Below are positions 29 through 58,000 of a DNA stretch of 64,000 nucleotides, piece by piece (within the stretch, counting starts at the first letter, position 1; each line of letters begins with the position of its first letter). The position numbers were made by a program, and so were the translations under genes. Below the pieces are notes generated by a model. It had not been told where the DNA came from. It did no database searches and saw only the letters and a program-made list of their open reading frames with translations. The stretch is from Amyelois transitella (Eukaryota > Arthropoda > Insecta > Lepidoptera > Pyralidae). The DNA is taken from positions 10,531,501 to 10,595,500 of the forward strand of contig NC_083505.1 of assembly GCF_032362555.1 (NCBI RefSeq), given 5' to 3'.

Positions 29-3000
29 TACCGGTGCAAATGCCGAGCCGAGCACTGGCACGTGGGCGGGTCGGGCTGGCTGAGCGGCACCATCCTCTCC
101 GCGGACGACTCGGGCGGGCTGGCGTGCACCCCTTGCGGGGTAGACAGCAACGCGGCCGCCTGCCTCGCCGACGTGTACCGCGCCGCGCTGCTGGCCGCCA
201 ATCTCGCGGGGATGCTCATCTGTGTCGTTATAGGACTCATCATTTTTAAGAAGAGGAAGTGTAAAGTAAGTCGTAAGAGTAGTAGTAATAATATCACTAA
301 CGTAAGGTATATATTTTACTTTGACCGTGTCTCAGTGAAAAGGGATGAAATAAATAAAGGTGGATGGGAAAAAGGCTTAATACAAACAATAACTACAAGT
401 TAGCTGTCCAAGGATTTCAGTTAGAAAACATATTTTGTCACTGTAAGTGGATAGGAATTCATATTTTAATTTTAGTCATAAGCCTTTAATAGCGTCTCCT
501 TGATATTTTGTTTATTTTTCTAGGCGGTGGCAATGGGCATGTGGACTGTATTGGAGGTGGTGTTACTCGGCGCCTTGTTGATGTACGCGTCGGTAAGTAC
601 ACTTTATATCTTGCGGTCTTGTAAAAAATATCCAGACAGTTGGACTATCGAACTACCGTTAGGACTAGATGGAATAAACATTCAGTTCAGGATATTACAG
701 ACTAAACAAATTTATTCGAATTCCAGGCAGCATCGCAGTATATCTCAGTGGCTCAGTGGCGCTGCATAGCAGGGGCGTGGCTTCGAGAACTCGGATTCGT
801 GGCGTGCTACGGCTCGGTGGTGCTGCGGTTGTGGGTTCTCCTGGCTGAATTCCGAACCAGGAAAGCTCATCGGTGGACGCCCAGGGACTCGGAGGTTATA
901 ATGATTTTAATTTCCTGAAAAAATCTTAAAAAAAATTAAATTTATTTGGATGGGACTCACTTTTAATTGTATCCTAAAATGTTTCAGGTCCTCAGAGTTG
1001 TGGGAGCTATGATATCCGGCGCGGCGTGCTACCTAGCTGCGTTTACGGCGACGGCAGCGTGCGACGAGGACGGCGGCGAGAGCTGCGCGCGCGCCGCCTG
1101 GCACCACGTCACCGCGGCAGCAGAGCTGCTGCTGCTGGCGGCTGGGGCTAGGATAGCGTATGCGGCGAGGAACGCTAATGTGCCATTCCAGGCAAGTTGC
1201 CTTGTTATATTTCTAGGAATCGCATGCTATTTAGCACTCTTAACACTAACGGTGGTGAAAGAATTTGGCAGAAAGCTTCTGTGTAGTTTGTTCCGCCACT
1301 TCTTCTACACATGCGCTTTGGAAGCGGTATATTTATAATTTAATAAATAACATAATTTAAGTGATGTGACGTCAGTAAGTGATACCTTGAATCCTATTCT
1401 ATTCTAAATAAAAGACAGAAGTTATTTGCTACAGTTCCTATCTAGAAGAAATATTTCTTATTTAACAAGTCATGTGGTCTGTTTTTAGGAGCGTGGATGG
1501 CTGGCTACAGCGCTGGCGTGCGAGGCCGTGTGCGGCGTGGCGTGGCGCTGCGCGGCCCTTGCCGGCGCGGCGCCCGAGCGATCCCCGCTCGCGGCGGCGG
1601 CGCGTGCGCAACTCTCTGCGGGTGCGGCTCTAGCTTGTGTGTTAGCGCCGAGATTGTGGCACGGGTATAGAGCGAGATCGCTTGCACAAGAAGTAAGTCT
1701 TTCTGTATTACACGTTATACAAAGTATACGAGTATGTCATCATGATCAGATAGCCGCCGCAAATGTCGGCCGGTGCCGCGCTGGCTTACGCTTGGGCCCA
1801 GAGTCTGAGACGAGTATAGAGTGCGATTGCTGGTCCGACCGGTTTATTCTTTCAAGTCAGGATCGTAAAGATAACTTAGTTTTAGACATATACTTTTAAA
1901 TATTCAAATTAGCTATTTCGAAAAAAAGTTAAATTATAACTCCTAAATATTTCCATGATTATAAAAGTAAAATTCCAAAATATTGGTTTGTTTATGTTAT
2001 AATATCTATATTTCGCAGAGAAAAACATAAATATTCAAAAATTAAAAAAAAAATGTGATGGCGGACTTTTGCGAAAAGGTCAATTATCACGGTAGGTAGT
2101 TTTTGGACGCAAAGGATATAAGCCGTTTATAATCCTTCCAGGTATCGAGACGGGGTCCAGCTGAGGGCTTCGGCGTGGAGGGTGAAGAGGAGCCGACCTC
2201 AGAGGAAGTGAGAGCAGAATTGAAGAGGTTGTACGTCCAGCTGGAGATACTGAGAAACAAGACGCTACGACGCGACAACCCACACATTAGCAAGCGACGG
2301 GGCGGAAGGAAACCTCCGCACAGGCGGTTCTCCTTACAGGTATTTTTAGGGTGAAAAGAAATAATAAATTCGAAGATAACATTTCGCCCACATAAGCTTA
2401 CTTACATCTTTTATGAATTTGCATACATTTTGAAAAATTTGCAATTTAATATCTAGGCTGACATTTTTGTACAGGTTTCGATCATTATCGTTTTTCAGAT
2501 CAGAATAGATAAATATAGTCTGCTGCTAAAGTATTTTATTATTCAGATATAGGTAGTTTTGTAGGTTTATTATCCATTATTGTTCCAGATTTTTGTGATA
2601 TTTATTTTAGATTTTCCTCTGTTTCCTTAATTGTATGTACCTTGGTTGTGTTTGTTTTGTGATAACTGTGTCCTCTTCTATCTTAGTTAATACTTTGTTG
2701 TAATTATCGTCCTACCTTTTCCATTCCCCATTTTTATGTAACTAATAAGTACTTTTCTTGAGTCATGTAGCGATATAACCAGTCGATATAGTGAAGTATG
2801 GCTAGACAGACTCCTTCAGTATCGTGGTACTATCTTCATTCTCATTAATTAATGTTTCATCTTCCATCCTACTCCAACTTTAGAAAAAGGGCAGCCGAGA
2901 GAAGGTAAGGAGGTGTGATATATACCGCATGCACTTGTGGAGCACCCGCATGACCCCGTGGTTGTCCACTTTGACCCCACCCCTCGCTGTCACCCTACAA

Positions 3001-4255
3001 ACGAACAGTATAAATCTCACTAACTTACGTAACATGAAAGTTCCTTTATAAATACTTACGTTGCCATGTTCAACTGAAACTTTTTCCGAATGTTTTGTCA
3101 ATTTAGGTTTGCATTATGATTATTGTTCTATTGATAAAGGTACTAGTGCCAAGAATATTCATTCATATTCACTAGACTAAGCAACACACTCACATTATCT
3201 TTCTGGTCTCAAACATCGGCGTAACTGATGCGTCAGTATTGAGATTTATATGCCTTCCCCCAATGTCCCTGATCGGAACCCTGCACTGACTCCGTTGTCA
3301 AAACACCGCAACAAAGACTAGAAATCTTTTATTAAGCAAAATATTTTAATTCTCTTAAAAAAAGCTGCTGTTGAAAGTAGATTCGGTGAAACCAAAGTAA
3401 ATTTTTGAAATTTAGGTAAAGGTTTACTGGTAAAATAATCAATATTCGAAATAATTATAATAATGATGTCTGTTTTTCGAATGCACCCACTTGTTAAATT
3501 GCTTTATGGGTATTTACTTAATTCCTATGCTAATTGTCTGCAATGTCGAAATTATGTCGCTTTCATTGTACACTATACCTTTAGTATAAATCTAAAAATT
3601 ATACTTAAATAATAAATAAAGCATATATTGGAAAGTCCCTTAATGTACGCTTTAATTTCTTTCATCGCTAGCAAAGAGCTATTTACTATATTGTGGCTGT
3701 TTCTCTGCGAAAATAATAAATATTATTGGTTCCGTATTCACCGACTGATTGCTTCGATTCCACCCAAACGTAGGTTTAGTTTAGATTTACGAAATGAATC
3801 TTGTTGGTCGTACTGATTTGGATAATGCTGTTAATGTTGGTTGACTGATTTATGCTTCAGGGCAATTCACTTTTCAATGGATCAATGCAACCAACAAGTT
3901 ATAATTCTATCTACCACCACTAAACACATGAATACGTCGAGCATATATCCGTCGTTTCACCTATAAACCTTATAGTTACCTTACCCAATTAAATTATAAA
4001 ATGGCCTATTTCAGTTCGCTAATTAGCTACATATCTCCAAACAATAAATCATCGAAATCAGCAAACTACTTTCGCGTTAAAACGCTTAAATTTTCCCAGG
4101 CACTGCAAGCGCGTCGTGGCGGGAAAGGTAAAAGTGGTGGCAGCGCTAGCGTGGTGGAAGCCAGCGAGGCGGGAGACGTGTCTCGGACTCCTGAAGACTC
4201 TGTCTGCTCCAACGAGGGCCCTTCCCACTACACCGATGGAGACACGCAGGCGTGA
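29..4255 (+). CDS. Class C orphan GPCR, GPR158/Smog-like (3' part of gene, 7 exons)
   Basis: Joined exons: 29-265, 524-592, 727-894, 988-1191, 1489-1692, 2142-2339, 4100-4255; all junctions are phase 0, giving 362 codons including the TGA stop. Exon 1 has a Cys-rich stretch (YRCKCRAEHW, ACTPC) and TM1; exon 2 is TM2; exon 3 holds the TM3 block (CIAGAWLRELGF...YGSVVLRLW) and a basic loop EFRTRKAHRW; exon 4 carries TM4 and TM5; exon 5 TM6 and TM7; exon 6 a charged helical tail (KRLYVQLEILRNK, then NPHISKRRG) typical of GPR158-like receptors; exon 7 is a polar C-terminus ending GDTQA. The extracellular ligand-binding part lies upstream of the window. The fourth intron uses a GC donor (AG|GCAAGT at 1192). 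The family is a plasma-membrane receptor group (GPR158/GPR179; fly Smog and relatives). Class C is nearly certain; the GPR158 subfamily is probable from the TM3 block and the tail. Confidence 0.75.
1287..1415 (+). repeat. Transposon-tail repeat fragment in receptor intron 4
   Basis: The block TGCGCTTTGGAAGCGGT followed by an AT-rich tail with TTTATAATTTAATAAATAAC recurs in the carboxypeptidase gene at about 17743-17785. The segment ends near an AATAAA-rich stretch, which suits the 3' tail of a LINE or SINE. Its family was not identified. Confidence 0.45.
1766..1833 (+). pseudogene. Decayed copy of receptor exon 5 (TM7 region)
   Basis: About 70 bp after the donor of exon 5 the intron contains a stretch that aligns with exon 5 bases ~1615-1682. 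Read from 1766 it gives SAGAALAYAWAQSLRRV then a stop; the parent gives SAGAALACVLAPRLWHGYRA. The nucleotides stay alignable beyond the stop (GAGTATAGAGTGCGATTGCT against GGGTATAGAGCGAGATCGCT) but the frame has shifted. It has no convincing splice sites, so I read it as a relict tandem exon duplication. Confidence 0.5.
2340..4099 (+). other. Intron 6 of the receptor gene (1.76 kb)
   Basis: AT-rich, bounded by CAG|GTATTT and TTTTCCCAG|GCA. I see no further exon that keeps the frame, although a short exon could be missed. Confidence 0.6.
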
Positions 4256-6578: not shown

Positions 6579-6584
6579 AATAAA
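6579..6584 (+). terminator. Candidate poly(A) signal of the receptor transcript
   Basis: AATAAA followed within ~20 bases by a GT-rich element (TTTGGTGTGTTT). It is the best such combination downstream of the stop at 4255. Confidence 0.4.
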
Positions 6585-11424: not shown

Positions 11425-12860
11425 TTTTAAGATAAAATAAGAAAGCTTTGGTCTGAAATTTTGCCATTACGTCACGAATTTCTTAAAATTCCACAAAAGC
11501 TGGAATACAAACGAGCCATTAGCCGAAGCTCGTTATAAGACAAATCTATATATATCTCTAAGAAATCTATAGATATCTATTAAATTTCCATGCAGTTACT
11601 GTTGAAGTGACGTTAGGATAAACGCTAAGAAACGATGTTTCAAAATTCCTTCGGGATATAAGGTCCGGGTATAAACAAAAGACATATGTTGTTTTGTTTA
11701 TATATTAAAAATACAGTATTATACATAGGTAACTACTTCATTATGAGTGACATGGCGTTTGTTGATCATTCTATCTGATAAAACCCGTCTAATGTGATAA
11801 ATATTTATCGTTACAATAATATAATAACCACCTGCAGCTTTGTTTTATCTGATAAGAATGAAAAGAAGGTTTCAAGGCAAAATTCAGCCTCCTACGACCA
11901 ATAATTTTTATATCACGTGTATCATCTTTACGAGCAAGGAGGGCTTGATATAGTAACTCGGCACATGCGTATTGTTTAGTTATAAACTATCAGAAGAATA
12001 TTTTTGGCTCGCGATGCCAAATAATACTTTCGAAAGGCTTTGATCAATAAGGAATCGCGTGCTCTTTTTATTGCCGTAGATTCTTGAGTTTGGGTCCTTA
12101 AGATTAGTTTGAAAAGTTTGATTCAGGAGATAACCCGTGAAGAGGTACCTAACACACATACAAACACAAAACTTACTTTCGCATTTATAACATTAGTTAG
12201 GATTGGGATAGTTGGGATGGGATGGTTAAAAATAGTCCACGTACTTTTACGAGTATGTCGTATTGCATAGCTTACTACGCATATATTGAGTGAGCATAAT
12301 ACAAAGGGCTCCACGCGCCATTAATAAATATCGCGTTTGTTAACACGAGAATACCTAATGTCAAAATTAGTTGACATCCGCCGCGTTTTTTCGGTAAATA
12401 TCGAGATGGATAATATATCTAAGACGCGAGAATTGCCTTTCTTTTCAAATAGGTACACTTTTACTTTCGAACAAAAATAGAAAATACGTAGTTAGGAAAA
12501 TTATTTGGCCAATTAACAATAAAGTTCTACGAGATGTAGACCTTGCTACAAACGCTACGAAGTGCTACGAGGATTGCTACGACTGCCGGCCGCATGCGAA
12601 TCACATTAATTTGGGCACTTTAATCATGTTATGTTCACCTACTGTTGTGGACTTATGATGTTGTGGATTATGGATACATTTATTACATATATTGATTATT
12701 ATATTGTGGATACATTTATGGACACTAATCCATCCAACCCTTTCTACCCCGTTAGGGATAAAGACGTAATTATATGTATGTGTTATCCAACAAAACTATA
12801 GTGGAAGTATGGATTTTGTAAATCCATACGAATTCAATAATTGCAAAAGTCTGTCTACAT

Positions 12861-13118
12861 AAATACATACATATGGTCACGTCTATATCTCTTGCGGGGT
12901 AGACAGAGCCAACAGTCTTGAAAAGACTGAATGGCTACGTTCAGCTATTTGGCTTAATGTTAGAATTGAGATTCAAATAGTGACAGGTTGCTAGCCCATC
13001 GCTTAAAAAAGAATCCCAAGTTTGTAAGCCCACCCCCTAGTCGCCTTTTACGACATCCATAGGAAAGAGATGGAGTGATCCTATTCTTTTTTGTACTGGT
13101 GCCGGGAACCACACGGCA
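12861..13118 (+). repeat. SINE-like Rep-A copy, near full length
   Basis: Member of a family running from GTCACGTCTATATCCCTTGC (here with one change) through 'TAGACAGAGCCAACAGTCTTG', 'ATTGAGATTCAAATAGTGACAG' and 'TTAGTCGCCTTTTACGACATC' to GTGCCGGGAACCACACGGCA. The 5' side has a short (CATA)n-type run. I call the family Rep-A here; its formal name is not known to me. Confidence 0.8.
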
Positions 13119-15848: not shown

Positions 15849-18800
15849 ATGGCGGCGTACACCGATCAGCTGGAACACACCAGCATTTACCACGGCGGGA
15901 ACGATGGTATTGACAGCTCATAATTGAACTGAAATTAGTCTTGCGTTTAAAGACTGAACAGAGAATATTGTTAATCTATAAATTATATACCCTATAATAC
16001 TACCTCTGTACAAAAAAAAATATTTTTTTATAGATGAAATGAAATGCATTTTGGCATGGCAGGCACCTGTAAATTAATATTGATTTAAAACTTGTCACTA
16101 TCTAAATTGCAATGTCTCGTTACACGTTATTTTTTCGTTAACCGACACATTTAGGTAATTGTGATGTAAAAAAGTCTTGCATAAAGTCCTATCAAAGAAA
16201 ACAAAACACTTCTCTATGTGGCTAGTAATTTGATTTCTTTTTAACTGTAACGACTGTTAATATTTTTTAACAGACAGCGAAGAAAGCGACGGGGAAGGAG
16301 GTCTCGGTAACCTGAACAGGTTGATCGTGAGACCTCCCGGGCAAAGCGGCAAAGCCAAGCGCGGGCAGCTTTGCTTCGACGCGGCATTCGAGTGCGGCAA
16401 CCTCGGCCGGGCCGACCACATCTCAGACTTAGAGTACGATCTGTTCATCCGGCCGGACACCTGTCGACCGAGGTGTCGGTTTTGGTTCAACTTCACTGTG
16501 GAGAATGTTAAGCAGGATCAGGTGTGTTGATATCTTCCAAGCAACTAAGAAGATGCGATTACAAGTCATCATTAAAAGATATAACAACTTACAAGTTGGT
16601 GTTGTTAGTCAAGTCTAGTACTTATTTATGGTTTTCCAAAGTGGATTCAAGCTAAACCTTAGCTTATAAGTTCGTTATTAAGTATTTATATACCTTATTT
16701 ATTGAAAAAGATTCTCTTAACCGTTTTTCAGAGGGTGATTTTCAATATAGTGAATTTAGGTAAAGAGCATACGTTGTACAACACCGATATGACGCCGTTG
16801 GTGCGATCCACGTCACGACAAAAATGGTGAGTAAACAGAGTAGGTACCTATTACCTAAATTTTTTTCTTGTGTTATCATTGTGTATATTTCCTAATAAAT
16901 GACTTCAATATCTTCCTGATAGATACTTCTTACTACACTAACCCCAGAATTCTTAATAATAATATTCAAAACAATTTCTTGCATTATCATCATGTAAATT
17001 TCTTGATAGATGAGTTCAATAGACTTCTTACTAAACTTACCCTAGAATTAATAGATTGTTACTTATCGTAATACAGGCAACGCTTACCACGTCGCCTGCT
17101 TTTTTACCACCGCTCCCTGCCCCATCGTGGTCGCAAAATACTAAGCATCGCATTTGCTTTTGATAAAGAAGAGGATATCTACCAATTTGCGACGGCAGCC
17201 CCGTACTCGTACTCCAGACTTCAGAGGTACCTCACTCTGTGGGAGAAAAGAGCTCAAGCGTTTGCCACCAGGGAGACGATAGCACAAACAACGGTAATCT
17301 TCAATAGTTTCTTACTTTTCTTTAGTAAACTGATGCAGCCCCATCGGACTACTTGGACACCGCCAGATGCACTACTTTAGTCTTCCTCCGGGCGTTCATC
17401 CTGAGTGCGCCATTTGACAATTATCCTGGATTGTATCAGTCAGGCTTTTACACTCGCTCACAACTTGAGAAATACCCTTTATGTAATGCCTCGTTCTAAC
17501 CAGAGATTATATTTGCAGCAAAAGAGAAAAGTCGATTTGATAACGATCGGCGATTTCGGGGTCAAAGACAAAGAACACGTAGAGGATCATTTTCCCGCTA
17601 AAGGCAAAGTCGGTGCACCCAAGAAGAGAGTAGTGCTGATACTGTCCAGGGTGCACAGTGGCGAACAACCGGCCTCCTATATTTGCCAAGGTATGAAACT
17701 CGAAGGTACAAAACAAGATAGGAAGTTTATGCCGCCGTTTCTAAACTTGCGCTTTGGAAGCGGTTGTAGATTTAATTATAATTTGTGTTGATGGCATTAT
17801 ATACTATTTTGAAAATAAATAAGTATTTCTAAGGATACTGTATGTAGTTTCGGGCTGAATTGAAATAGGCTAAATTCAGAAAACACCACTAACAGTTGCA
17901 GTAGTGCATCAAAACTTCGACATGAATCGTAATAAATTCCAAAGAATCTGGCTTTATTTTAAAAACAATATGATATCCTGATGCTATTATTAAACAAAGA
18001 GTTATTACCCTTCTCTTTGTTAAGGATTCCTGGACTTCATGGTGAGCTCTTCTGAAAAAGCATCCGCATTACGGAACAATATCGTCATTCAGGTAAAAAT
18101 TTCTAGGTCACTGTATAAGATTTTCTTTAATTAAATACTCGAAATTTAACTTCTCACTACCTAATATATAGTAAATTAACTTACAATAGCTACTCTGGTG
18201 GATTTAGATACTTGGAGTAAAAGGAAATATAATATATAATCCATGCAGGTGGTCCCAATGCTGAACCCTGACGGAGTGTTCCTCGGCAACCAGCGCTCCG
18301 ACCTGCTAGGATCCGACCTCAACCGGTGTTGGGACCGCGCCACCACCTTCTCGCACCCCGCACTTATTGCCGTCAATGAGCTGGTCAAGAAGGTTACTAC
18401 TGAGAAGGTTCGCTTTTGTTCGGTTAGCGACCACAGTTCCTAAAGAAATTTGTACATAACTTTATGATTAAATTTTAAGTTTTTACAGGGTGTGCAACTG
18501 GATTTCATCATCGACATTCACGCAGATATGAGCCACGAAGGTGTATTTGTGCGGGGAAACTCGTACGATGACGTTTATAGGTAACAAAAATATTTTAGAT
18601 CTTGTATGGTGGCGTTTGTCTTTACGTTGCCGTTTACATCTTTATAGCAGATGTCAGGTAACTTTTTTCAACCATCCAGATAAAATACCTACTACATAAA
18701 ATCCAGGTTCGAACGTCACGTGGTACTTCCGAAATTCCTGGCTGGGCGTGTAGAGGCATGGCGCCCCGAAGCTTGCCTGTATAATTCTGATGCACTAGTG

Positions 18801-20548
18801 ACGGGCAGCGCGCGTCGTACGCTTCCCACGGGAGCTATGGATGCTTACACCTTGCTCGCTTCGATGGGAGGCCGTCGACTGACTCCTAGGGGACCCTATA
18901 TACACTACACCGAAGAAGCTTGTATCCTTTCATTAGTCCGCATAATCAAATAAAATGAGTACAAAATTAAGGCTGCTGCTACATATGACTGTTTAGGAAG
19001 AATTTCTTGTTTCGTTATGCTCAGTTAGCTTGGCAATGTTTACGTTGGCTCATTTGGCTCGATTCTATATTTGAATACCTATACAGATACGGTCGATTTC
19101 CAGGCTTAGTTGATGCGATTCTTTATATTTTTCTTTAAATAACAAATCAGACACGAAAATAGGTAGATCAGTAGCACGAGCTCTGTGCGACTACTATCGT
19201 CACGTGAGCGTGGTGCCTCCTCGAGTGCCACGCGCCAGCAAGAAGGAGAGCCGAGGTAGACGGCGCAGGAGACGAAGACCAACCGCGACTCGAGAAAGGT
19301 TACCGTCGACTGATTTTTTTCTTATTTACACGTAGAAAATAGGTTGCTCTCTGTGCGACTACTGACACGTGCGCGTGGCACTAGGAAAGACGACGACGGA
19401 AGAAGCACGTGGTAGACGGCGGCACTAGAGACAAAATCCAGGTGGATCTCGAAACAGATCTTCCGCTCACTGCTGTTTCTTGACGTTTTATATTTTATTT
19501 TAACCTGGTGCCTCCTCGAGTGCGAAGATCGACGGCGCAGGAGACAAAGACCAACAGCGACATGAGTAAGATCCGCGTCCAGCTAAATTACTGTCATTCC
19601 GTAACTTAATTTGTTTATAGAGTAGTCGGAGATGAAGAGCATTTATTTGTAAATCTGGATCATTTCGGTAATTGACTGATCCAATAAGAAAAAACGCCAA
19701 TCAACATTGGAATTAAACGACGAAATTATAACTTGCCATTAAAATTTTTATACAGTCAGTATTCTAGTTTACTCCAAACCTTATCTTGGGCTAGATGAGC
19801 CAAAACTGTCCAATTTAAAAAAAATAAATTAAAACTTGATAGGTCACCGAGTTCATCCCCAGAGCGGCGGGTGCTGCCTCCGCGCATCCTATCCCCTCCA
19901 CTACCCCAAGCCTCACCGCCGGCCTTGCGCGCGCCGCCTCCATTGTCCAGACACACGGCCTTGAGGAATCGACCAAAGACTGGAGTCATGGATGTTGATA
20001 ACATTCTGCCGATTATAACGGGTATGTCTTCATCTCACAGACTACTAATACTGGCATTTCCCACACTTTAGGCCTTTTACATGCCTTTTACATTATATTT
20101 AAGTGGTTCTGGTGGAATTGCTAGAATTACATGCATATTTCACGTCTATATCAGTTCCCTGTCATGTTCAGCTGGATGGCTTAATTATACCTATTGAGAT
20201 TTAAAAAAAAAAATCAGTTTTAATCCGCACTGGAATAGAAGCAGCTGACATACACTGTTTTCTTCGTTACCAGACCAACATGAAAGCTAGAATTCAAGAT
20301 GTACATGTCACAAAGTTCACTCGCAAATGTTAGGAACCCTACAAAATTCTACTTCCAACATATTTTCCACAGGCACCGCAGTGCGAACACCCCGCCTTGC
20401 CGTTGTGGACTTCAGTGCCTACATCCGCACTCCCACCGGAACCTCCTACGGCTACCTGAAGTCCAAGGCCAGGCTGGCCCGCCCTCCGAGACCCTCGCAC
20501 ACGCGGTACACCAGCGACGAATACGATACACATGAATCAGAGTCTTAA
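15849..20548 (+). CDS. AGBL4: Cytosolic carboxypeptidase 6 (AGBL4-like, M14 family)
   Basis: Exons: 15849-15906, 16274-16521, 16732-16826, 17077-17293, 17519-17690, 18025-18092, 18249-18407, 18489-18580, 18707-18921, 19151-19298, 19843-20021, 20373-20548; 1827 nt, 608 aa, all phases closed. The N-terminal CCP domain shows FECGNLGRADHISDLEYDLF, WFNFTVENVK and STSRQKWQRLPR. Zinc ligands: H252 and E255 (RVHSGEQP) and H350 (IDIHADMS). Substrate-binding block: MLNPDGVFLGN and DLNRCW. CCP6 enzymes remove glutamates from tubulin and other proteins. Odd point: the catalytic Glu of the family (YTLE motif) is Leu here (about L420, AYTLLASMGGRR). The C-terminus is Arg-rich (GRRRRRRRPTATRER). Exon 1 was chosen because its phase-1 end joins correctly and yields an acidic N-terminus (GNDDSEESDGE); the remaining exons are more certain. 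Confidence 0.9.
17728..17790 (+). repeat. Transposon-tail repeat fragment, sister of 1287-1415
   Basis: Shares TTGCGCTTTGGAAGCGGT and the AT-rich continuation with the receptor intron repeat. Both lie within ~120 bases downstream of an exon donor. Confidence 0.45.
19326..19570 (+). pseudogene. Two decayed copies of carboxypeptidase exon 10
   Basis: Copy B (19326-19396) contains ACACG..AAAATAGG..CTCTGTGCGACTACT..CACGTG.GCGTGG, matching the start of exon 10 (19151-19215). Copy C (19503-19570) contains TGGTGCCTCCTCGAGTGC and GACGGCGCAGGAGAC.AAGACCAAC, matching its second half. Both have gaps that break the frame and lack usable acceptors. They look like relics of tandem exon duplication. Confidence 0.65.
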
Positions 20549-21777: not shown

Positions 21778-24408
21778 TCACTCCCAGGAGTCGTTGTCGT
21801 CGTCGGAGAGCGTGACCAGGTGCATGGGGTCCGCGCCGGGCGCCCGGGGCGGCGCGCGGGGCGCGGGCGGCGGCGCCGGAGCCCGGGCGGCGCGCTTCTG
21901 CCGCAGGAGCTCCTCGTCGGCCGCCGTGCGCGTTTTGCGGAACTCGTACACTAGTGGGAAAATGCGCTCCACGGCGGACTGCACGTCGCTCACGCTGCGA
22001 GCTGAAACGTTAATGTTTAGAGGTTAAAACCTCCTTTCGTCGTATTTCTTATTTCTGAGGCTTATTAGGGATGAGACCCGCCATCTGTTCTTGTAGTTGG
22101 CGTTATATGGGAGATACCTTCAATTGATTGGAAAAAGTCAATCAAATCATGAATTATAGACAGACCCTTGATACTATAATGAACACGATTAAAGTTAACA
22201 AAATTAATATTTTTTACTAATCGTCAATACATCTATTTCTGTTTTTCCTTAGAATCAGACAAACTTGCGTGGCTTGCAAGGCTGCGTTTTCATACAGACA
22301 GTCGCAGCTACAAAAGTCGAAGATATCTTCTAGCAGGCAACACGACAAATACCTTTCCATAACAATAAGATAATGTCAGACAGAAAACAAGACATTTACT
22401 TGAAAAAGGCCTCTACACTCAATGTCAATGAACCCGTCTGCCGGTCAGATGTCAGATTTGGGAAGGTCGCCGACAGGACAAAAGTCTATCTTGAGTGGGA
22501 TTTTAATTCACCTGGGTTATTTCATACATAAACATAATACATAAACCTTGACTAGTATTTTTTTAATGAATTAGGACTTTTAAAAATGTTTCACTATTTT
22601 TATACATAAATATTTTATAAGCACATGGTGCTATAAGAAATTATGTGACCAACTACGTACCTACTTGCAGTTAAAGATGCACCTTAGATGTTTTTTAATT
22701 AAAACATAAAATATCTTCAAACAATTTTCAATCCTCAAGCTGATTAAAGAAAATTAATCACCTGTTATTGTAACGCCGCCAGTTGAAAATATCTTTAGTG
22801 TGGCTTTAGGATTATATAGTTTATATGTTACACCTGGATGTAACTCTGGTTCATAGCTGAAAAAACAAAAATAATAACAATGAAAAATTCACTTTATCAA
22901 TACAAAACATTAGCCATTAATTAAACAAATATAAGATGGATAGATTAATCTCATCAATAGTGACTTACAACATAATGCTGATAAAACTCTGAATCACAAG
23001 TGTGATTTCGACGTTATTTGGCCAAATGCCAACAATGCATTTAAAAATTATCTGAGACCAACCCACATCCACATACAAAGTACCTTAGCATGATTTTTAA
23101 TTACCAGTATTTTACTTTACAATAGAATTCAGTGAAATTATCTAACGATCTACAAATAAATATGTATACCTAATTTTGCATTTAATACAATGAATTTGTA
23201 TACAATGCAATGGTTACGTAGATGCTGTGTGGTTCCCGGTACTATAAAATAGGACCACTCCATACCTATTCCATCAATGTCGTAAAAGGCTACTTCCGGA
23301 CAGGCTATAAACTTAGGATTCTTCTTGTAGGCGATGGGTAGTAACTTGTCACTATTTGAATTTCAATTCCAACATTAAGCCATACAACTGAATGTGGCTT
23401 TATAGTTTTTTCAAGAATGTTGGCTCTGTCTACCCTAACGCCAATTTGGATGTCATTATATGCTAGGTACTTGGCAAAGTCTGATTAAAAACAAACATAA
23501 CAGATGGATTGCAAATTCAAGTTTACATATTTTACAAAGCTGAAGCCTAGTAATTTAATTCATTTTCATGGTACCTATCTTCTAAAGCTTCTGATTTGGA
23601 AGAATACCTATAGCCACATGTTTGTTGCAATTCTTGATATGAAGAAATAAATATCCAACAGTAAAAATGATTATTTCATTGTACTCATTATAACATTAGT
23701 ATCCATTAATGAGTAAAATATTTTGTGCCTGTAAATTGTAGCTACCTACATTACCCACATTACGCACATTCATCTTGCTTTTGCATATTATGGCAAAAAG
23801 TAAAGAAAACATAAGAATACTCACTCTGCTTCTTTATATTTATTGGAGAAGGCTATTATGCGAATACCAAAAGGCATTCGACATGTTCCTAGTACATTGA
23901 CTACGCGGAAATTCTGGAAGCGGACTTGAAAGCCTAACTTCTGCAACGCGCGTGCATACCGCCTTGCAGCGATCTTGGCTTGGTCCTCGCTGGTAGCCCC
24001 CGTGCACGTGACGCGGCCCGAGGACCAGATCGACGCCGTAGTGTATGGCCGACGCAACTTCATAGTCACCATGCCATTCTCGCGCCGAAACTCCACGTTA
24101 ACACCATTCAAAGCTATCTGTCTCAAGTTCAGGTGGCACTTAACACTAAAACTACACACGACATTGTTTATCATGATATCTATTTCCGGGGTTTCTTCCT
24201 CATCTTCGGGAGCGCCGGCCGTTGAAGTGGGCTCTGCGGTGTCCTGGCAGGGTTGCGATGCCGACCCTGTGGTGCTCGTTTCGCAGTACTCATGGTCGGG
24301 TACCATGTGACTTGGGACGCTGTGTGCGGATATGCCATGGATAGGCACCACCCCCTGGGTGCCCTTGCTCAACTCTTTAATACCATTTTCCTGGATGAGC
24401 GTAGCCAT
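21778..24408 (-). CDS. Trf2: TBP-related factor 2 (TBPL1/TLF)
   Basis: Coding exons in order: 23825-24408 (exon itself starts at 24423), 22762-22856, 21778-22001; 903 nt, 300 aa. After an acidic, low-complexity N-terminus the first TBP repeat reads INNVVCSFSVKCHLNLRQIA, MKLRRPYTTASIWSSGRVTC, TGATSEDQAKIAARRYAR and LQKLGFQV. The second repeat continues YEPELHPGVTYKL and LKIFSTGGVTITA, then AVERIFPLVYEFRKTR. These match TBPL1, not TBP (VVCSF with CHLNLR; YEPELHP). TRF2 directs transcription from TATA-less promoters in the nucleus. The C-terminus carries a Pro/Ala/Arg-rich extension ending in acidic SDDDNDSWE, longer than in vertebrate TBPL1. The ATG at 24408 is the first in the exon; an upstream exon (non-coding or a longer isoform) is implied by the acceptor at 24424. 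Confidence 0.92.
23228..23441 (-). repeat. SINE-like Rep-A copy in Trf2 intron
   Basis: Degenerate but full-span member of the Rep-A family: it begins on + with GTGTGGTTCCCGG and ends near GTTGGCTCTGTCTACC. Confidence 0.7.
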
Positions 24409-26945: not shown

Positions 26946-27024
26946 TCAAAATTATGAAACAAAGGTTCATACTCACTTATGCGATATGGTACAGAAATAC
27001 GTACCTTCATACATATAATAACGT

Positions 27025-27262
27025 GTACTACTACTTGCGTAGTAGACAGACCCAACAGTCTTGAAAATACTGATAGGCCAAATTCAGCTGTTGGGCTTAA
27101 TGATAGAATTGAGGTTCAAATAGTGACAGGTTGCTAGCCCATCGCCTAAAAGAAGAATCCCAAGTTTAAAAGCCTATCCCTTAGTCGCCTTTTACGACAT
27201 TCATGGGAAATAGATGGAGTGGTCTTATTCTTTTTTTTATTGATGCCGAGAACCACACGGCA
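27025..27262 (+). repeat. SINE-like Rep-A copy
   Basis: Carries the TAGACAGACCCAACAGTCTTG, GTGACAGGTTGCTAGCCCATCG and GAACCACACGGCA blocks in order. Confidence 0.75.
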
Positions 27263-28408: not shown

Positions 28409-47082
<18,674 letters not shown>

Positions 47083-50000
47083 GAACGCGCGCCTACCAAC
47101 ACTAGGAATTGAAACTACCACGTTTGTACTAACATTCCTTTCCTTGGAAATGGCCGATAATGTAGAATAAAGTGATCATGTTTTGATAAACATTTACCAA
47201 TTGTGTCAATTAGGACGTACAGTTTAACATTCGGTCATTTTTAAATAGAGCTTTTTACCCCCATACTAAACATATCCGTCTCGAGTTCGCTCGTAGGTCC
47301 GTTGATTAGTTCTTGATATTGTCACTTATACAATCAAAACACCAACTGTTAATCGTATACCTAAATTTGATGTAACAATTAGCTAGTCTTCTAATAATAT
47401 TTAGGAATTTTATCAAAATTATTTACACGATTTCAGCGTTACTGCTGTGATAGTTATTGAATAATATTTATGTTAATATTATGTACTTAGAGATACGGCT
47501 CAGTTTTGCATAGGTTTTGCGATACGCTGACGCAATAAGCTCTGGGAGACGTTTGGAATGCGTGATAGCGCAAGTGTGGCTACGACGTAACACTGCTGAC
47601 AGCGTTCCGATAACGTAACATGCTCTGCTCATGTTTTGGGGCAAATATTTTTTGTGCCACTTATTATGTATTGAAAATTTATGCTCTCTTCTTGATTTGG
47701 ATAATTTATTGGATTTGAATTTAAAATTTATTCAGTTGTTTGACGATAAGAATTGAATATAAGAAAGAATAATCGTCGCCATCAAAGAAAAAGTAGCGTC
47801 GTTTGAAGCATGTTACAATAAATAATGTTTCGAATACTTGGTTATGTAAATATTAGATATGATAATGTGTTGATATTATGATGTTTATTACGCCTATATC
47901 TACGCGCGTTGGCTTTTTCAAAGGTTTTATTTTAATCTCAGTTCGTTTAGTGCTTCGGTGGTTCTTAAAAGTAGTGAAGGGCCGTTAACAGAAAGGAAGG
48001 TGGTAACCGCTGCCGGCAACAGTTACATAAGACCAAGTTGATTGTATTAAGTTTGATTGTCGGGCGGCGCAGGCGTTGTGGTAGATTGTCGGAATTAGTC
48101 GACGACCTTCGGCGCTTGTTCATATAAATGTTTTCGCCGGTTACCTGCGTCGACACGTGCCTTTAAGCGCTGGTAGGCTGCCAGCTTTCTTTCTGTATAC
48201 CTACGGCCTAGGATCGCATATCAAAGCGGTTGTAGAGTTGTTTGTGCCTTTTATTAACGTAAATTACATGACATTGTGTGTAGGATGAATTTGGATTTGA
48301 CTGTAGTGGTCGGTTTAACGGAAAGAGAAAATATTTTTTCGGTCAGGACAAATTATTGCATTATGTTTTATTCCTTTTTATTTTTATACAAAGTCTAGTT
48401 TCTATTTTTTATATTTTGACAGGCGTTCCAAAGCATCGGACATACAGGTTGATATTTTTTTTACTTTCGCATTTAATTTTATTCGTAAACTCGTGTCTAT
48501 GTTGATAAATAATTGAATAATGGGATAAATTACCTACATGCCAATAATTTTCCAAATATCAACTAATATTCAATTACCTACCTGTTAATCATCAACGTAT
48601 AATTATATTAAACAATAGTTAAGAACACTTCCGCCACTTAATACTAAGTTCACCAATAATTAATTGGAAAGAGAACTTTTAATGTTAAAACGGATATAAG
48701 TCCACATGGAGTGATATATTGATCCTAGATTTACAAGTAGGACTAAAGTACACTACTGTAAAGTCCAAGCCGCAGGGAGTTAACCTAGAATAAGTACAGT
48801 CGCTTCGCATTTGCAAATTAACGAAAACCGTGCCATAACATGTTTAGTTGATTGTCCAGTATAGTTGCTCAACCTTCTTGACCTGCGGGACTTTGCACTA
48901 ACATTGTCAAGCCCTATGTCCTATTTAACCTCTCTCTTTATCCTAAGGGTATTAGCAACCATTGAGTGAGAGGGAAAATAAGACATTTTTCTTGTCAACG
49001 GCAGTGAATAGACACGCAGCGCGGTACTTAATTACATAAGACTCACATGGGCTTCCTCGTGACACAGGAACAATTTATATTAGAATGTATTGAGCTTAAC
49101 TAGACACCATGTAGTAAATTGTAACTTTTAACACCATTTATAAATGCCTAATTCTGTACAAATTAATATGCTGTTTTGTATCATTAGAAAATATCACTAT
49201 TTGATATTCACAAACAATTTACCAATCATAGAAATAGTTTATATTAACTATATCGCAATGTATATTACTGTGTAGACTCACTGAAGCAATAAATAAAAAC
49301 AGTGTCTTATTAAACTCAATAATGTGTGTTTGTAGAAAATTGGTGCCAAATATATTTTTATTTTGGAAAATGTACCATGTAAATGTGCATTAAAATCATG
49401 GTTGTGTAAGTTAACACCAGTGTTATTCGCCTTTCCTGCATGTAGCCATGTATAAAGTACCATTATGATCTGTTCGACGGTAACAATAATATTTAGTTGT
49501 GATCTGAAAGTACAAATCGAGTGGACTCGCATTATGGTCCCGGCGCTTCGTTCGGTGTTTACAAAAAAGTAATTTTATTAAAGGGATTTTCAGTTTTCTT
49601 CAAAATCAGTTTTATTTCGAATTAACACAATTATATTATCGTTTCTCTTGTCGGCCAGTGAGATTGAGAACAATTTTTGCGCGATTGATCTGATTTTTAA
49701 AATAAGTTTGTTTTCTTCACCAGTGTTTTCAAACTTATTCTGCAGGCAAAACCTGTCACAAAGTCGCTTAAAGTTCTATAGGGTTAAAACGTAAGATTTG
49801 TCTGAAAAAGCAGGGTTAATGATAAGTTGTGTGTAGCAGCGAGTTCTTCGCGCGGTCGCACGCAGGCGCTGTGGTGTACCTTTGGATTAGCGATTGTAGG
49901 AAGTTGACGCCCTGCGACCACCCGTGGTGCTAAATGGAAGCAGGCCTCCCGACGCAACGTTGTTATAGTGCTTCTTGTTAAAGGTTAATGAACTGTTTAT

Positions 50001-52034: not shown

Positions 52035-55000
52035 TCAAAAGAGCCCTACAGATTTCTTCAAGTCCTTTTGTTTCCAGGCTGGGAGCGTGCGAAATTCGCT
52101 GTATGTGATGTGGAATGTTGACACAAAATCGTCGTGAGTCAGGTACAGCTGAAACGACCAATACATTATAATGAAATATTAAAATATGATTTTGGTGGTG
52201 TTAGCAGGTCGCTTTACACTGTAAATGATTGGCGTGAGCTATTAATATGAAATGCCACTAGCTTTTCCTCTGCGCTCTGACTGCGTGTTGCGTTTAGAGT
52301 GCTTTGGTTTTCAGATATACATATGTAGCCCCTGATCATACTGGGAGGATATGTTTAAAGGAGATAAGTATTTTAAAGTTAATATGCTCTTTAATTCAAG
52401 CAGCGGTTATAGAAAAAAAAACACAAAATCTTATCACCAAAATGTGACATGTTATGTCTTTTAATATCACGAATGTGCAGGGTCGTCGCAAGTGAAAAAC
52501 GAAGTCTCCGCTTACCGCTCCGAGAGAGAGAGTGAGGGATAATAGAGTATACATGCATAAAAGAAATATCAGATTACCTCTTTAGAAAGAGGATCGACAT
52601 CCGGTGGCAGGTGTTCCTTGGGCCCTCGCAGGACCGTTAGCGGGTATTTTTCGTACTGGTCAAAGCGGGTCGCGCTGTTGCCGCTCTGGATCGCGTTGTT
52701 GCCACACTTCACTATAGCCTTGCCTTCTAGAGCGCTGACTATTGCGGCGAAGGTTTTGTGACCCTACGAAAAGAAGAAATATATAGATATATATCGAAGG
52801 CATGGCAGCTTGTCGTTGGTCGTTTTAAAAACAAAATATATTAAATAAATCCCGGCAGTGTTATTGTTAGTGAGCTATTATACTATATTATGTTATGAAT
52901 TGTGAATGTTTCAATATTCGAGAAGAAATAGAGTGCTTCTGGTTCAATCTAGATATGACGACCAATGCGAAAGAGATGATTTTTTTGTTACCTTCCACAA
53001 AGACTGCTTCCAATGCGGGAAGAAACCCGTGAAGTGTGGTGGCTCACGACCCTGACTGATGACAAGAATTGGTGTTTCGGGGTCTCTGGCGGCTGGGTCT
53101 GTAAGAGAGAATTGTTATCTATAAACTAATCAAATTTAAAATTGGTAAGAAAACCATTCCGTGAGGTTCCCGGCACCAATAGAAAAAATAATAGGACCAT
53201 TTTATCTCTTTCTCATGAATGTAGTAAAAGGAGACTAAGGCTTTTATACTTGGGATTCCTTTTTTAGGCGATGGGTTTGCATTACGCATTTTAACGGGGC
53301 ACCTTACCGATTCGACCACCGACGATCGCTTTGACGTGACTATTAGGTATGTATGTGTGTAAAAAGAAAAAATCAAATAACAACCCTCCATGGACTAATG
53401 GTACTTATAATAGAATAACGTAGAATATTTCTTGTAGTCTATGCCTGCTCCTTGGGGAAAAAGGTGTGATACTAATATAGGTATGTAATGTAACTTAAAT
53501 ATAAATAAATACCTATATACGGGACAAATTACACAGATTGAGTTAGCCTCGAAGTAAGTTCGGAACTTGTGTTACGAGAACTCAACGATACTATATTTTA
53601 TAATAAATACGTATATAGATAAACATCCAAGACCCAGGCCAATCAGAGAAAGTTCGTTTCTCATCATGCCCTGGCCGGGATTCGAACCCGGGACCTCCGG
53701 TGACACAGACAAGCGCACTACCGCTGCGCCACAGAGGCCGTGTATAATATTAACTACTTAATATTAACATCTAGATAGAAAACTCCACAGATTTAACATT
53801 ACCATGAGCAAGGTAAGCGTTGGCCAATGAGCGCGCGTCTTCCTTAGCGCGCGGGCAGCAGTGCGCGCCGAGCCATACGAACACCGCGATGTGCGCGTCC
53901 AGCACGCACGCCATCTCCGGAGACAATTCGTACTGGCTGAATGACACGATTTCTTCGACTGTGCATAAAAAAAAATTGTTGTTTTTTTTTCTATAACCAT
54001 ATAAGTATTTATTTCAACATACAACTTTCATTGAAATTTGTGTATGTACCTACTTCATAATTTGTGCGATATTTTATTTTTGAAAAGATGCTAAAGCAGT
54101 TCGTGTTATGTTCATAATTTTTTAATTTCATGTTTTCAAATATTGATATCCAATTATATCTGTATCACGAAACAATTTCAATTGTTCTCACATGAGTATT
54201 GTCCAGGGACTCCGAGTGACACGTAGAATAGGCGCGGGGGCAGCGGTCGCTCCACCTCCTTCAATGGAGACGCCACCAACAGAGGCCGGCGGTCGCCCAG
54301 GGCTGTCCAAAAATCTGGCTTCTCCTTGCCTGTAAATTAAAGAATAATGATATCAGGAAATACATAAAAATAAATTGTACCTAAAGGTTCTACAACAACG
54401 GTACTGCCTGGAATAATTACGTGATGACTATTTTGGAAGCAGCAACCAATAACCATGAATGTCAGTACATGCCATACTTGCGTGACGAGTATATGATCAG
54501 CAGTTTTTTTGGCAGTCTCTTGTTCGTCCCTCACACTACACACGCAGTACGAAGCGCAAAGATCTTTAGTTAGCAGTATCTAGTAATGTATAATGTCTTC
54601 AACTACCTTGCATAACAAGTATATGATCAGCAGCGGCCATGTTTTTGGCGACTTCTCTTTCGTCTCCAGTAGCGGTAGCCGCACACCACACCCACACCCG
54701 TGCCGCCTCTCGCAGTATGAAGCACGCGCCCGGCGTGACTTCGTCATAGCGAACTTCCACGCCTCGCGCTTCGCGAGCATATTGCCCCGATACTCGGATC
54801 AAGGCGCGCAATGGAGCTGTCACACGGCGTCCGCTAGCTGTAATGTGGTTTTTAAGGTTATCCGGCTTGGAGGACCAAAAATTTAATACAATAAAATGTC
54901 CCTCATTTTACATGAAAACTGGCAAGAGCCAGAGCCAACATTTTGAATAGATTGAAAGGCTGCATTCAGGAAATTTCTGAAATATATAATTTGTAGAATC

Positions 55001-58000
55001 TCAACATTGTCTTAAAGGTTACTTTAGATATTTGATTTACTCGTATTATAAGGTGAAAGAGAGTTTCTGTTCACACGCAAAAGATTTGATACATTTTGTT
55101 TAAAAATATGGTTTCAAAATTAAAATACTCGTACTAACGATCGTAATCCGCGGCGCTTCCCACGTATGTGATCATCCGACCTTTGAAGATCTGCAGGAAA
55201 TGTGCTGGCTCCTTTCCTTGGTACACCCATGCCTGCTTAACGTTAATAAGTTTTTTTTTAAATATGTTTAATTCTGTTGTAAATAAATATTTTAATAGCA
55301 AACTGTATAGTCTCACCTGGACAGGAAGACGCCCCAATTTCGTGTAGAGGTCTTTGGCTTCTTTTGCACCCAAATTCCTCAAATCATTTGGCGAAGAGCC
55401 ACCCTGGAACAATAAAGATACTTGTTATTTATGAGTTTTGTTTTTACAGACTGACAGAGCTGCATCTTACGACGCTACTAGGATTAACTCCAGAAGTTCA
55501 ACAACATCAGAACTCCAAAACTTATAACCACTATGATTATAAGTTTTTATTTCATTACTTCGCCTTAACCTAACAACTTAATGAATATCTGGGGATTCAC
55601 CAAAGGTGTAAACCCAGTAAGGGTTCAATAATATGGAGTCTTCAAATATTATTGATCGTTTTTTTTTAACAATGGGGAAGAAAACTGTCAAATAATTCTA
55701 TGTAGAGGGCACCAAAAGTTTGTTACAATGAAGCTGTCAAACTCCATACAAATACTGGGGCGGTGAGTGGCTCTTGTATGTAAATAAATAGGTTCACAAA
55801 AATTCTGTAAGAAGTGCTTTACCATCCAGTAGTACAGCACGGACTGGTCGCCAGTAGGCGCGTGGTAGGTGTATAGCGCGATGTAGCAGTCTTGATCGTA
55901 GAACACGGCGGCTTGTGGACGTTCAACTTCGATTAGAGTGCTCTCGTCTTCGGAGATGTAGTGCACGCGCCACACCCGCAGCGCGCCAGACCCGTCGTCC
56001 GGGAGTTGAGCCTGGATTGTGATTGGTGGGTGAAAATTAAATATTTTGCAGCAACTATATTAGCATAATTGATATTATCATTATAATAACAGAAACAACA
56101 ACAACGTTTTATAATATATATTTTTTTATCAAATTAAATCATATATGATAGATATTCTAACCAAAAACTTAATATAAATGCTGTTTGGTAGCCAACAAAA
56201 AAATTCTTTCTTATTTAATGTCATGTATAAACTTAGGTACTCAAATTACAGTCTCACCTCAGCAGCAAGCCACGAATTGGCGGCCAAACTAACTGCATCC
56301 AACTTCGTGGTGGCCGACCGAGCGGCGCGGAGCCTCGAGTCGCGGCGTTTGTCACACCAGCGCCACCCACGGAACAACGCCGCAAACTCCAGCGGCTCCC
56401 GGCCCGCCTCTACTACCGACACCGGAACTACTAGGCGTTTGGCCCGCGCGAGACCTCTGGCCGCTGCTAGAGCGCCCCTGGAGGCGGAGTTGGAAGCGTT
56501 AGGACCGACCCAGGCCCAGACACCGCGGTTACCACTGTCTATAATGAAGACGCCCTGTTGGATAATTAATGTTTATCAAACTCTTTCATAAATCACTGAC
56601 AAAGAACCCATGGTTGAATTTTTAAAAGTAACCTGGGCGGCTCCGTGCCACTGTACATCCTCGCCGGTTAAGTGCTGAAGCTATGTACGATAAGAGGAGT
56701 GTGTATCACTTACGTCTTCACTTAAATCGTCCCTATGCAGTGGCGCTCTTTTGACTTCCTCCAGCCTAGCTGCTGGTCTTTGCGAAGGCACGGTGACTGC
56801 GACCCTAGGTGGTTGGGTGGCTCTATACAGTCTAGCCGGTCTGGGAGGGTCTGCGGGCGGCGCGGCCGGGCGGACGGACCGTGCGCGGAGTTCCAGCAAA
56901 GTGTCCAGCAGACCGCGGTCGTAAGCCGGCAAGGTCTGCTCATACCCATCGTGGGCGATTGCGATTCGGCGTGCGGTCATGCCTTTTTCGGCTCCTCGGG
57001 CCATGCGGTATGCAATCTGAAATAATATGAAAATAGCTTTTTGATCTTTTTTAACCTCTTCAATTTCTAACATACCTCCCCTTACAGTGTAAATAAAAAT
57101 GTGTGCCTAAACCAATATCTGCAGAAATTTATACATTTTTAAATATTCATGTTTGCGTTTAATGTTATTTCAAGCACTCTTTTTTATCATGTGGGAAGTA
57201 TAGGGAGCGAACCATAGCTATGGGAAGCACAATTTAAGCAAAGGCCTCAGCGTGGGAGTTATTTTATTTACCTTAGCACCGAAGATCTTTTCTACCAAAT
57301 TGGCAGCCCGTCCCAGCCACAACAGAAGCAAGGACGAGGTGTCGAGCACGAACACTCCATCGGCAGAGAGGTGCGACCACGACACCGGTTCTAGTTGTAA
57401 GAGGACGGGGCGGCGTCCTTTCACTCGGTATAGCCTAGCGCCGCCGTTGAGTGTCCCAGAGCCGCTACGGAGAATCCTGTGAAAATGATTGTTTCGATAC
57501 TTTATCACTAGCATAGATAGTAAAATGAAATAAAATTGGTTGGCACCGCGTTGCGCAGCGTAGCGAGCCCGTCACTGCACTCGCCGGCCCACGGGTGGAT
57601 GTGACTAAGCGAACTGGCCTCTGCCATTCTCTTTTCTATTATCTTTTACTGACCTGATACCATCTCTAAAGTAGGACAGCAAACGGGGCGTCTCCTTAGT
57701 CACTGCCTCGCGATGGATGACCACGGGCACCGCTAAGTGGGCTGCCAGCTGAGTGCCGCGCCGCAGCGCCAGCGCAGCGAGCCCGCCGCTGTGCTCACCG
57801 GCCCACGCGTGAATATGACGTTCGGCGAACTCACCGCTGCCGTTCTCTTTTATTTCTCGACGCTGATGATTAGAGAGATAAATAAAATAATAATAATAAA
57901 AAAAACAAGTTTATACTTTATTACACTGAATTTTATTTGGACCGATATTATTTAACAGTCCGAATGTGCCAGAAATAACCGACGGATACGTAGAAGTATA

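Follow-up and report, generated by a model that had tools for sequence, protein, structure and literature searches.

Short local tandem duplications, or close direct repeats, are the class to which we presume the partial exon copies described here belong; the copies resemble it in orientation, in short spacing, in the occurrence of young head-to-tail arrays and in the excess of direct over inverted pairs, but differ in that the coding cases kept here all lie on the donor side of the exon. Passages of PMC6071210 deal with tandem exon duplication as the origin of mutually exclusive exons. In both situations an exon is duplicated with neighbouring intron, whereas the units found here are mostly partial and lack a recognisable acceptor, and their copies have decayed. 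Intron gain by tandem genomic duplication, as outlined in parts of PMC3443670 and PMC2891723, likewise turns a duplicated exon segment into intron. In that process, however, a segment within a coding exon is duplicated and a new intron results, whereas here the unit spans a donor already present and lengthens its intron. All seven window copies are located past an authentic donor, in an intron that was already there, and no new intron was formed between AGGT sites in a coding exon. Searches of open-licence papers brought up none describing a 3′ bias among partial exon copies in introns; this negative is weak.

An initial annotation of the window, i.e., the whole 64-kb stretch of DNA analysed, had reported decayed copies of receptor, carboxypeptidase, Rok and villin-like exons, constantly 3′ of the parent and in the same orientation. 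We laid out 46 exons from frames and splice sites and scored the similarity of each to its own flank against that to flanks of distant exons (swap control; 600 bases, 46 tests per class). For seven of the 46 exons, a 3′ sense copy at z>4 (range 4.8-24.4) lies no more than 0.6 kb away, while at this threshold the 5′ sense, 5′ antisense and 3′ antisense classes each gave 0/46. When we required only that the own flank exceed every foreign flank, the counts were 9 for 3′ sense, 0 for 5′ sense, 1 for 5′ antisense and 3 for 3′ antisense. Shuffled controls agreed, with eight matches at p<1e-4 in 182 tests, every one 3′ sense; at p<1e-3, one 3′ sense match (receptor, 579-676) and one 3′ antisense match were added. 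One of the eight, the Rok12 sense match (46603-46687 against 47007-47094), and the added antisense match, also from Rok12, were dropped because by eye both fall on the GC-rich exon that follows in that gene. The receptor match (p=9e-4 by shuffle) reached z=6.0 with 1500-base flanks only and was left out of the count; its partner is AT-rich sequence past two further exons.

False matches of this kind (Rok12 and, outside the window, L051) show that base composition, with GC-rich islands in AT-rich introns, can mimic a copy in shuffle tests. Nevertheless, against real foreign flanks seven exons scored z=4.8 or more, and the remaining three classes never exceeded 4; neither foreign nor upstream flanks reached such scores in this control. 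We consequently reject chance similarity or composition, to which we assign a negligible probability. The presence of decayed partial exon copies just 3′ of their parent exons is confirmed, and the annotation was right about all four genes, in which seven parent exons are involved, and about the direct 3′ placement of the copies (7/7).

In the class C GPCR-like gene, the parent exon rec_e5 spans 1489..1692 on the plus strand, with the donor AA/GTAAGT after 1692; a 7tm_3 match (E=1.1e-8) lies in the same frame at about 748-1248, i.e., in preceding exons. The decayed copy, at 1758..1853 (plus strand; z=11.8), corresponds to 1607-1703, the 3′ part of the exon plus 11 intron bases, with 57/84 exonic and 9/11 intronic identities and a degraded donor. 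The carboxypeptidase-like parent exon is at 19145..19298 (plus strand, 5′ border approximate, donor after 19298); other exons of this gene match Peptidase_M14 (E=0.0065) and M14_N (E=0.0029), both under the curated cut-off. The two pieces announced for this exon were found as two copies of overlapping parts of the one parent, both on the plus strand: copy 1, at 19328..19480, derives from 19159-19320 (exon plus 22 intron bases; exon z=13.1; identity 93/126 exonic, 14/22 intronic), and copy 2, at 19518..19589, from 19246-19316 (exon 3′ part plus 18 intron bases; 43/53 and 11/18).

Three exons of the Rho-kinase-like gene Rok, on the plus strand, have copies on that strand. Rok5 (40289..40482, 5′ border approximate, donor after 40482) is followed at 40502..40566 by a copy of 40349-40413 (48/65 identical; z=13.1), the remainder of the unit not being recognisable. 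Rok6 (40760..40934, acceptor TTTCTAG ending at 40759, donor after 40934) is followed at 41234..41311 by a copy of 40758-40839 (exonic 59/76; z=12.7), in which the aligned sequence begins with the acceptor AG but does not include the pyrimidine tract. The PH-domain exon Rok9 (43764..44032; PH_MRCK, E=2.7e-7; donor TGAG/GTTAGT) is followed at 44068..44226 by a copy of 43866-44039, comprising the exon 3′ part and the donor region (z=24.4; exonic 123/149 identical), in which the donor is degraded.

The remaining parents belong to a villin/gelsolin-like gene on the minus strand, as do their copies. Vil1 (57654..57862, donor ATCAG/GTCAGT) precedes an exon with a Gelsolin repeat match (E=4.4e-17, about 57391-57272), and its copy at 57543..57643 corresponds to 57858-57758, starting 5 bases into the exon (78/99 identical; z=23.8). 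Vil7 (54607..54870, 5′ border approximate, donor CAAG/GTAGTT) has a copy at 54420..54530 of 54666-54555, i.e., the exon 3′ part plus 52 aligned intron bases (43/54 exonic, 32/52 intronic); its z of 4.8 with 600-base flanks falls to 3.7 with 1500-base flanks. Across these copies, exonic identity to the parent is 68-83%, and the donor-to-copy distances of the seven exons, in the order given (copy 1 for the carboxypeptidase), are 65, 29, 19, 299, 35, 10 and 76 bases. The proposed range of 4-75 bases thus holds for five of the seven, with one copy at 76 and one at 299.

Elsewhere in the same genome, we examined 109 exons or coding cores, the cores being codon-bias calls that missed AT-rich exons; 12 cores had been removed before this count, one of them inside the L020 array and 11 as repeats (including two in the L046 array and one kinase-like core in L045). 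The swap test gave z>4 for seven 3′ sense, two 3′ antisense and one 5′ sense match (103-104 tests per class). We dropped two of the 3′ sense matches, L016 (z=7.3) as a low-complexity coding repeat and L051 (z=6.0) as GC-rich kinase exons, together with the 3′ antisense matches of L020 and L051. The 5′ sense match, L021 (z=4.9), the alignment of which includes a single exact stretch of about 22 bases, was dropped as weak, 2/201 foreign flanks scoring equally high. A 35-base 3′ sense match in L045 is at or just under z=4. The five cases kept (5/109) are all 3′ sense and in direct orientation, so that the placement rule also holds outside the window. Taken together, 12/12 kept cases are 3′ (p=0.0005), a count of only 12, several from one gene, from which one weak 5′ candidate had been dropped. 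The proportion is higher in the window, 7/46 against 5/109 (Fisher p=0.043, the outside set including uncertain coding cores), and such copies also occur beyond it.

Shuffle tests are less clean outside the window than in it. For 34 kinase exons (136 tests), p<0.01 was reached by four 3′ sense, three 5′ sense (L047, L045, L030), one 3′ antisense and one 5′ antisense match, and p<1e-3 by three matches, all 3′ sense. For 99 cores (376 tests), p<1e-5 was reached by seven 3′ sense, three 5′ sense and one 3′ antisense match; the three 5′ matches belong to cores that were called within the L020 and L046 arrays or in antisense to them. Additional 5′ sense core matches at p<1e-3, in L045 and L015, are each to other coding sequence. 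The 5′ matches of L051 (p=4e-5 sense, 8e-6 antisense) were judged to be composition since the swap z did not exceed 4 on the 5′ side. L049, in which kinase matches overlap, yielded no copy.

The structure of the duplicated unit can be seen directly in L046, L020 and L003, where the 3′ part of an exon, the splice donor and some intron are repeated head to tail. In L046, a kinase exon, the exon-end/donor string occurs five times with a period of 133, reaching the edge of that outside stretch, and the shifted self-match is 99%. The L020 repeat (period 218, 94% identical) takes in the intron past the donor, and in L003 the exon end, the donor and about 30 intron bases recur two further times downstream (79 and 86%). 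The head-to-tail unit including the spacer is clear in L046b, L020 and L003a. Among the window copies it is partly visible: alignments extend across the donor in rec_e5, both carboxypeptidase copies, Rok9 and vil7, and four of the seven exons retain intron sequence past the donor. A tandem unit with an intron tail is not visible in Rok5, Rok6, vil1, L003b and L046a, whose copies stop inside the exon.

These features suggest that each copy is the decayed remainder of one member of a short local tandem duplication, with a copy-to-parent offset of about 130-480 bases, in which the unit would start inside the exon or at its start and run across the donor into the intron. As the full exon would be the first member of the unit, the extra member would lie 3′ and in the same orientation. 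The copies would look exon-shaped because the coding partner stays conserved, whereas both partners are free to diverge where intron is aligned with intron. Identity is indeed lower in intronic (74/111) than in exonic (544/706) aligned bases (p=0.023), as one-sided conservation predicts; mismatches occur at all codon positions (47/233, 43/238 and 72/235). Copies without an intron part may have arisen in the same way and since been trimmed or decayed.

When pairs flagged as dispersed repeats are set aside, close pairs, non-coding ones included, number 27 direct and 2 inverted, against 19 and 21 among the flagged ones (p=7e-5). These are counts of pairs, not independent loci: L016 supplies five of the 27, and both L046 pairs were classed as flagged since sequence resembling the kinase exon occurs at other places in the sample. 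The five window exonic pairs among those listed have no match elsewhere in the 328-kb sample, an observation that, like the intron sequence retained in four of the seven window exons, bears on a transposon-borne or retro-copied origin. With close direct pairs also in non-coding sequence and young examples that are plain tandem arrays, an exon-specific duplication machinery is not required. The annotation's suggestion of a local mechanism stands as a local duplication process, but a special one is not needed.

The annotation had also considered that the copies might be left over from alternative exons. Tandem exon duplication is a known source of alternative exons, mutually exclusive ones included, according to passages of PMC6071210. 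The starts of the Rok6, vil1 and perhaps carboxypeptidase copies at or near the exon start would suit this origin. However, four of the seven window copies start at least 60 bases inside the parent exon (two exon starts being approximate), the L020, L046 and L003a units also begin inside the exon, and no alignment keeps the pyrimidine tract of the parent's acceptor. As the annotation had stated, no window copy combines, by eye or in the alignments, an acceptor and a donor of its own with an open frame. Based on the interior starts and the arrays, we reject alternative-exon remnants for most cases and consider them highly improbable overall.

L046a calls for a separate comment. It is a nearly identical 64-base copy of the exon interior, just past the donor, that ends without a donor, so that a further deletion or a templated insertion is needed to account for it. 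Templated insertion during break repair, in which end joining or replication template switching copies nearby exon fragments into the intron, fits this copy, and parts of PMC4056370 describe Drosophila insertions with small stretches inferred to have been copied from nearby sequence. The same source gives only 2/50 polarised Drosophila insertions as tandem duplications, which counts against the tandem-duplication reading. Nevertheless, templated insertion would be expected to produce copies on the other strand and on the 5′ side as well, where none of the 46 window exons exceeds z=4 in any class, and L046b, L020 and L003a are head to tail with intron included; as a general explanation it appears improbable.

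The 3′ rule could reflect the way a duplicated donor is spliced. The transcript of a newborn duplication would carry two identical donors, of which the upstream original would stay in use; the copy would therefore be removed as intron, would be invisible to selection and would decay. An acceptor-side event, from the upstream intron into the exon, would place a second acceptor upstream, which would tend to be used; the mRNA would gain intron sequence, and such duplications would be removed. According to human data in parts of PMC9225289, minigenes carrying identical strong duplicated donors were spliced exclusively from the upstream copy when exon definition applied, and competing acceptors show an upstream preference. 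The same source reports that short introns favour the downstream donor and that exon definition weakens the preference for the upstream acceptor. The present introns of vil1 and vil7 measure 177 and 277 bases, and less before duplication; such short parent introns count against a splicing filter. We favour this filter for the 3′ rule by extrapolation from the human data. The analysis establishes that the copies exist in direct orientation, that the kept cases lie 3′ and that three outside cases have donor-and-intron units; decayed tandem duplications straddling the donor, combined with an upstream-splice-site filter, would be the whole explanation with reasonable probability.

The same tandem duplications could instead be biased at their origin, through breaks or stalled forks preferentially just past donors. 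The 12/12 kept cases on the 3′ side agree with this, as does the start of the copy 10-76 bases past the donor in six of the seven window cases, and the interior-only copies of Rok5, L003b and L046a are also 3′ without a splice site on which selection could act. On the other hand, short units alone keep a copy close to the donor, and direct close pairs in non-coding sequence make a donor-specific process unnecessary; we regard mutational bias as unlikely, though less so than templated insertion.

A genome-wide rule in this lineage by which partial exon duplications arise or persist virtually nowhere but at the donor side of exons is a tentative generalisation that we would not yet expect to hold. 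If true, either breakage is focused past donors, or the upstream splice site wins, which would make intron starts a safe harbour and acceptor-side duplication harmful. Introns would then lengthen from their 5′ ends by captured exon and donor copies, as a one-way ratchet. For annotators and exon-duplication surveys, the copies are a warning that decayed pseudo-exons lie beside real exons. A mutational bias would indicate a break hotspot just past donors. Tandem exon duplication is familiar, but a strict 3′-only rule would be a DNA readout of which identical splice site is used; it would predict where introns lengthen and would allow the rules of splice-site order to be tested from DNA alone, whatever the genome.

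Four genes of the window carry decayed partial copies of their own exons in the adjacent introns. The source genome comprises 327 Mb in 33 contigs. Domain searches identified a class C GPCR-like gene (7tm_3, E=1.1e-8), a carboxypeptidase-like gene with M14 and M14_N matches, both under the curated cut-offs, a Rho-kinase-like gene (Pkinase, 1.9e-62; PH_MRCK, 2.7e-7) and, on the minus strand, a villin-like gelsolin-repeat gene (Gelsolin, 4.4e-17). The domains were computed; the labels Rok and villin, in part from the initial annotation, are putative. The window also contains a Mariner/Mos1-like transposase frame on the plus strand (62266-63378; 370 codons, no inner stop; Transposase_1, E=9.3e-19; HTH_48, E=1e-6), copies of a short dispersed repeat in both orientations (12854-13118, 23222-23433, 26991-27262, 44651-44863, 60297-60469 and 60615-60886; copy pairs ~78-92% identical) and, in the long Rok intron, an AT-rich array of tandem repeats, each roughly 139 bases long (35642-36412).

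Based on open frames and splice sites, we drew up a list of 46 window exons, which is a working list and not a curated annotation. The 1 kb upstream and the 1 kb downstream of each exon were searched in either orientation for similarity to it, with dinucleotide shuffles as the control; p<1e-4 was obtained in 8 of 182 tests, every one downstream and in the same orientation (3′ sense). One of these eight matches was dropped, being judged by eye as the next real exon. Because shuffles ignore GC islands, the test was redone against the real flanks of distant exons (swap test). With 600-base flanks, z exceeded 4 on the 3′ sense side in 7/46 exons and in 0/46 for 5′ sense, 5′ antisense and 3′ antisense alike. 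Under a laxer criterion, in which the own flank scored above every foreign flank, the counts were 9 for 3′ sense, 0 for 5′ sense, 1 for 5′ antisense and 3 for 3′ antisense. With 1500-base flanks, the villin-like exon vil7 went down to z=3.7, and one candidate receptor match emerged. The initial annotation had reported such copies from alignment by eye; window self-comparison found direct pairs at the places it named, and the copies survive both the shuffled and the real-flank controls, with 3′ placement in 7/7 (p=0.016).

The parents are the receptor exon rec_e5 (1489-1692), the carboxypeptidase-like exon (19145-19298), Rok5 (40289-40482), Rok6 (40760-40934) and the PH exon Rok9 (43764-44032) on the plus strand, and vil1 (57654-57862) and vil7 (54607-54870) on the minus strand. 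The seven copies start 65, 29, 19, 299, 35, 10 and 76 bases downstream of the parent donor, and their exonic parts are 68-83% identical to the parent. Four start at least 60 bases inside the parent exon, the vil1 copy begins 5 bases into it, the Rok6 copy begins at the acceptor AG without the pyrimidine tract, and the carboxypeptidase copy begins near the exon start, a border that is approximate. The alignment runs past the donor into the intron for 11 bases in rec_e5, 22 and 18 in the carboxypeptidase copies, 6 in Rok9 and 52 in vil7. Aligned intronic identity (74/111) is lower than exonic identity (544/706; p=0.023), as expected with one constrained and one free partner. Mismatches affect all codon positions and are most frequent at the third (47/233, 43/238 and 72/235), as expected if the copy drifts freely and substitutions in the parent are mostly silent. 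The donors of the rec_e5 and Rok9 copies are degraded. Alternative exons, whose remnants had been suggested as a source, have their own splice sites; the window copies, tested for these, lack them, and this origin is not supported. In the intron right before the Rok6 copy, a GC-rich coding-like stretch (41095-41230; coding score covering 41095-41274) may be a further decayed copy.

Outside the window, we sampled 20 stretches of 10 kb at sites chosen without sequence knowledge, 26 short stretches surrounding protein-kinase exons that a Pfam listing gave, and eight 3-kb loci from a donor-like pattern search. One kinase stretch, L049, yielded no copy despite its selection for copy-like kinase matches. 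The swap test, run on 41 kinase exons together with the 68 coding cores that were left after 12 others had been removed, gave z>4 in 7 cases for 3′ sense, 2 for 3′ antisense and 1 for 5′ sense (103-104 tests per class). Five were kept after inspection, namely two exons in stretch L003, one in L020 and two in L046; the sole 5′ sense case, in L021, was dropped. The paired cases of L003 and of L046 lie within a few kilobases. The rate is higher in the window (7/46) than outside (5/109; p=0.043), and since the exon lists are of unequal quality we do not call the window exceptional. The observation is thus confirmed and extended beyond the window.

In L046, the last ~100 bases of a kinase exon, its donor and ~36 intron bases are repeated every 133 bases. 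This array (L046:1-673, equal to C17:316401-317073), young and resembling a minisatellite, bears several splice donors; it has five exon-end/donor strings and a 99% identical shifted self-match, and extends to the edge of the stretch examined. At L020:2792-3410 (C11), the 3′ part of an exon, the donor and adjoining intron recur with a period of 218 at 94% identity, and in L003 an exon end, donor and ~30 intron bases occur two more times downstream, 79 and 86% identical. All three are tandem duplications with a unit that spans the donor, and they explain the decayed cases. The local duplication process proposed initially is supported in an ordinary form: the mode of working is that of short local tandem duplication, and cases with the whole unit visible belong to that class. 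The copy L046a, from the neighbouring exon, has an offset of 133-135 bases, almost equal to the array period, perhaps by coincidence.

Close pairs in 328 kb, counted as pairs and not as independent loci, were 27 direct and 2 inverted when unflagged, against 19 and 21 when flagged as dispersed repeats (p=7e-5); both L046 pairs fell in the flagged group, as sequence resembling that kinase exon occurs elsewhere in the sample. Many direct pairs are non-coding, and short tandem duplication appears to be general in this genome, in contrast with Drosophila, where one report counts just 2 tandem duplications among 50 polarised insertions, albeit ranking with the largest (PMC4056370). The coding pairs stand out more because one of their two members remains conserved. 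A non-coding direct pair (16864-17049; 70% identical, offset 111) lies just 5′ of a carboxypeptidase-like exon; acceptor-side introns can thus bear close direct repeats if exon sequence is absent.

In a tandem duplication, neither member is the donor or recipient copy; a unit across the 3′ border of an exon yields the whole exon followed by the fragment, and one across the 5′ border yields the reverse order. Among all kept cases, including those outside, donor-side units outnumber acceptor-side units 12 to 0 (p=0.0005), so that the constant 3′ placement claimed initially holds throughout. By inference, we prefer a splice-site filter as the explanation. In their minigene study, Carranza and colleagues describe exclusive choice of the upstream of two identical strong donors under exon definition, and an upstream preference between competing acceptors that is reduced under exon definition (PMC9225289). 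If insects behave alike, donor-side duplication would leave the mRNA unchanged, and acceptor-side duplication would tend to add intron sequence to it. The same study describes a downstream donor preference in short introns, which counts against the filter because some parent introns are short (vil1, 177 bases; vil7, 277 bases). Rok5, L003b and L046a, copies free of any splice site, are likewise 3′, a placement that the filter explains only if trimming has shortened them. L046a almost matches its parent in sequence and has no donor; it may have arisen by templated insertion, or by duplication with a deletion. A mutational origin of the donor-side bias is therefore a real alternative, though one we consider less likely.

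Intron gain by tandem duplication gives rise to a new intron within an exon (PMC3443670; PMC2891723); the copies differ from this, and we rejected it for them. We found no earlier report of donor-side-only survival in the open-licence literature, a weak negative, and such survival may be new. What is of most interest in these observations is the 3′ rule, which is testable genome-wide.
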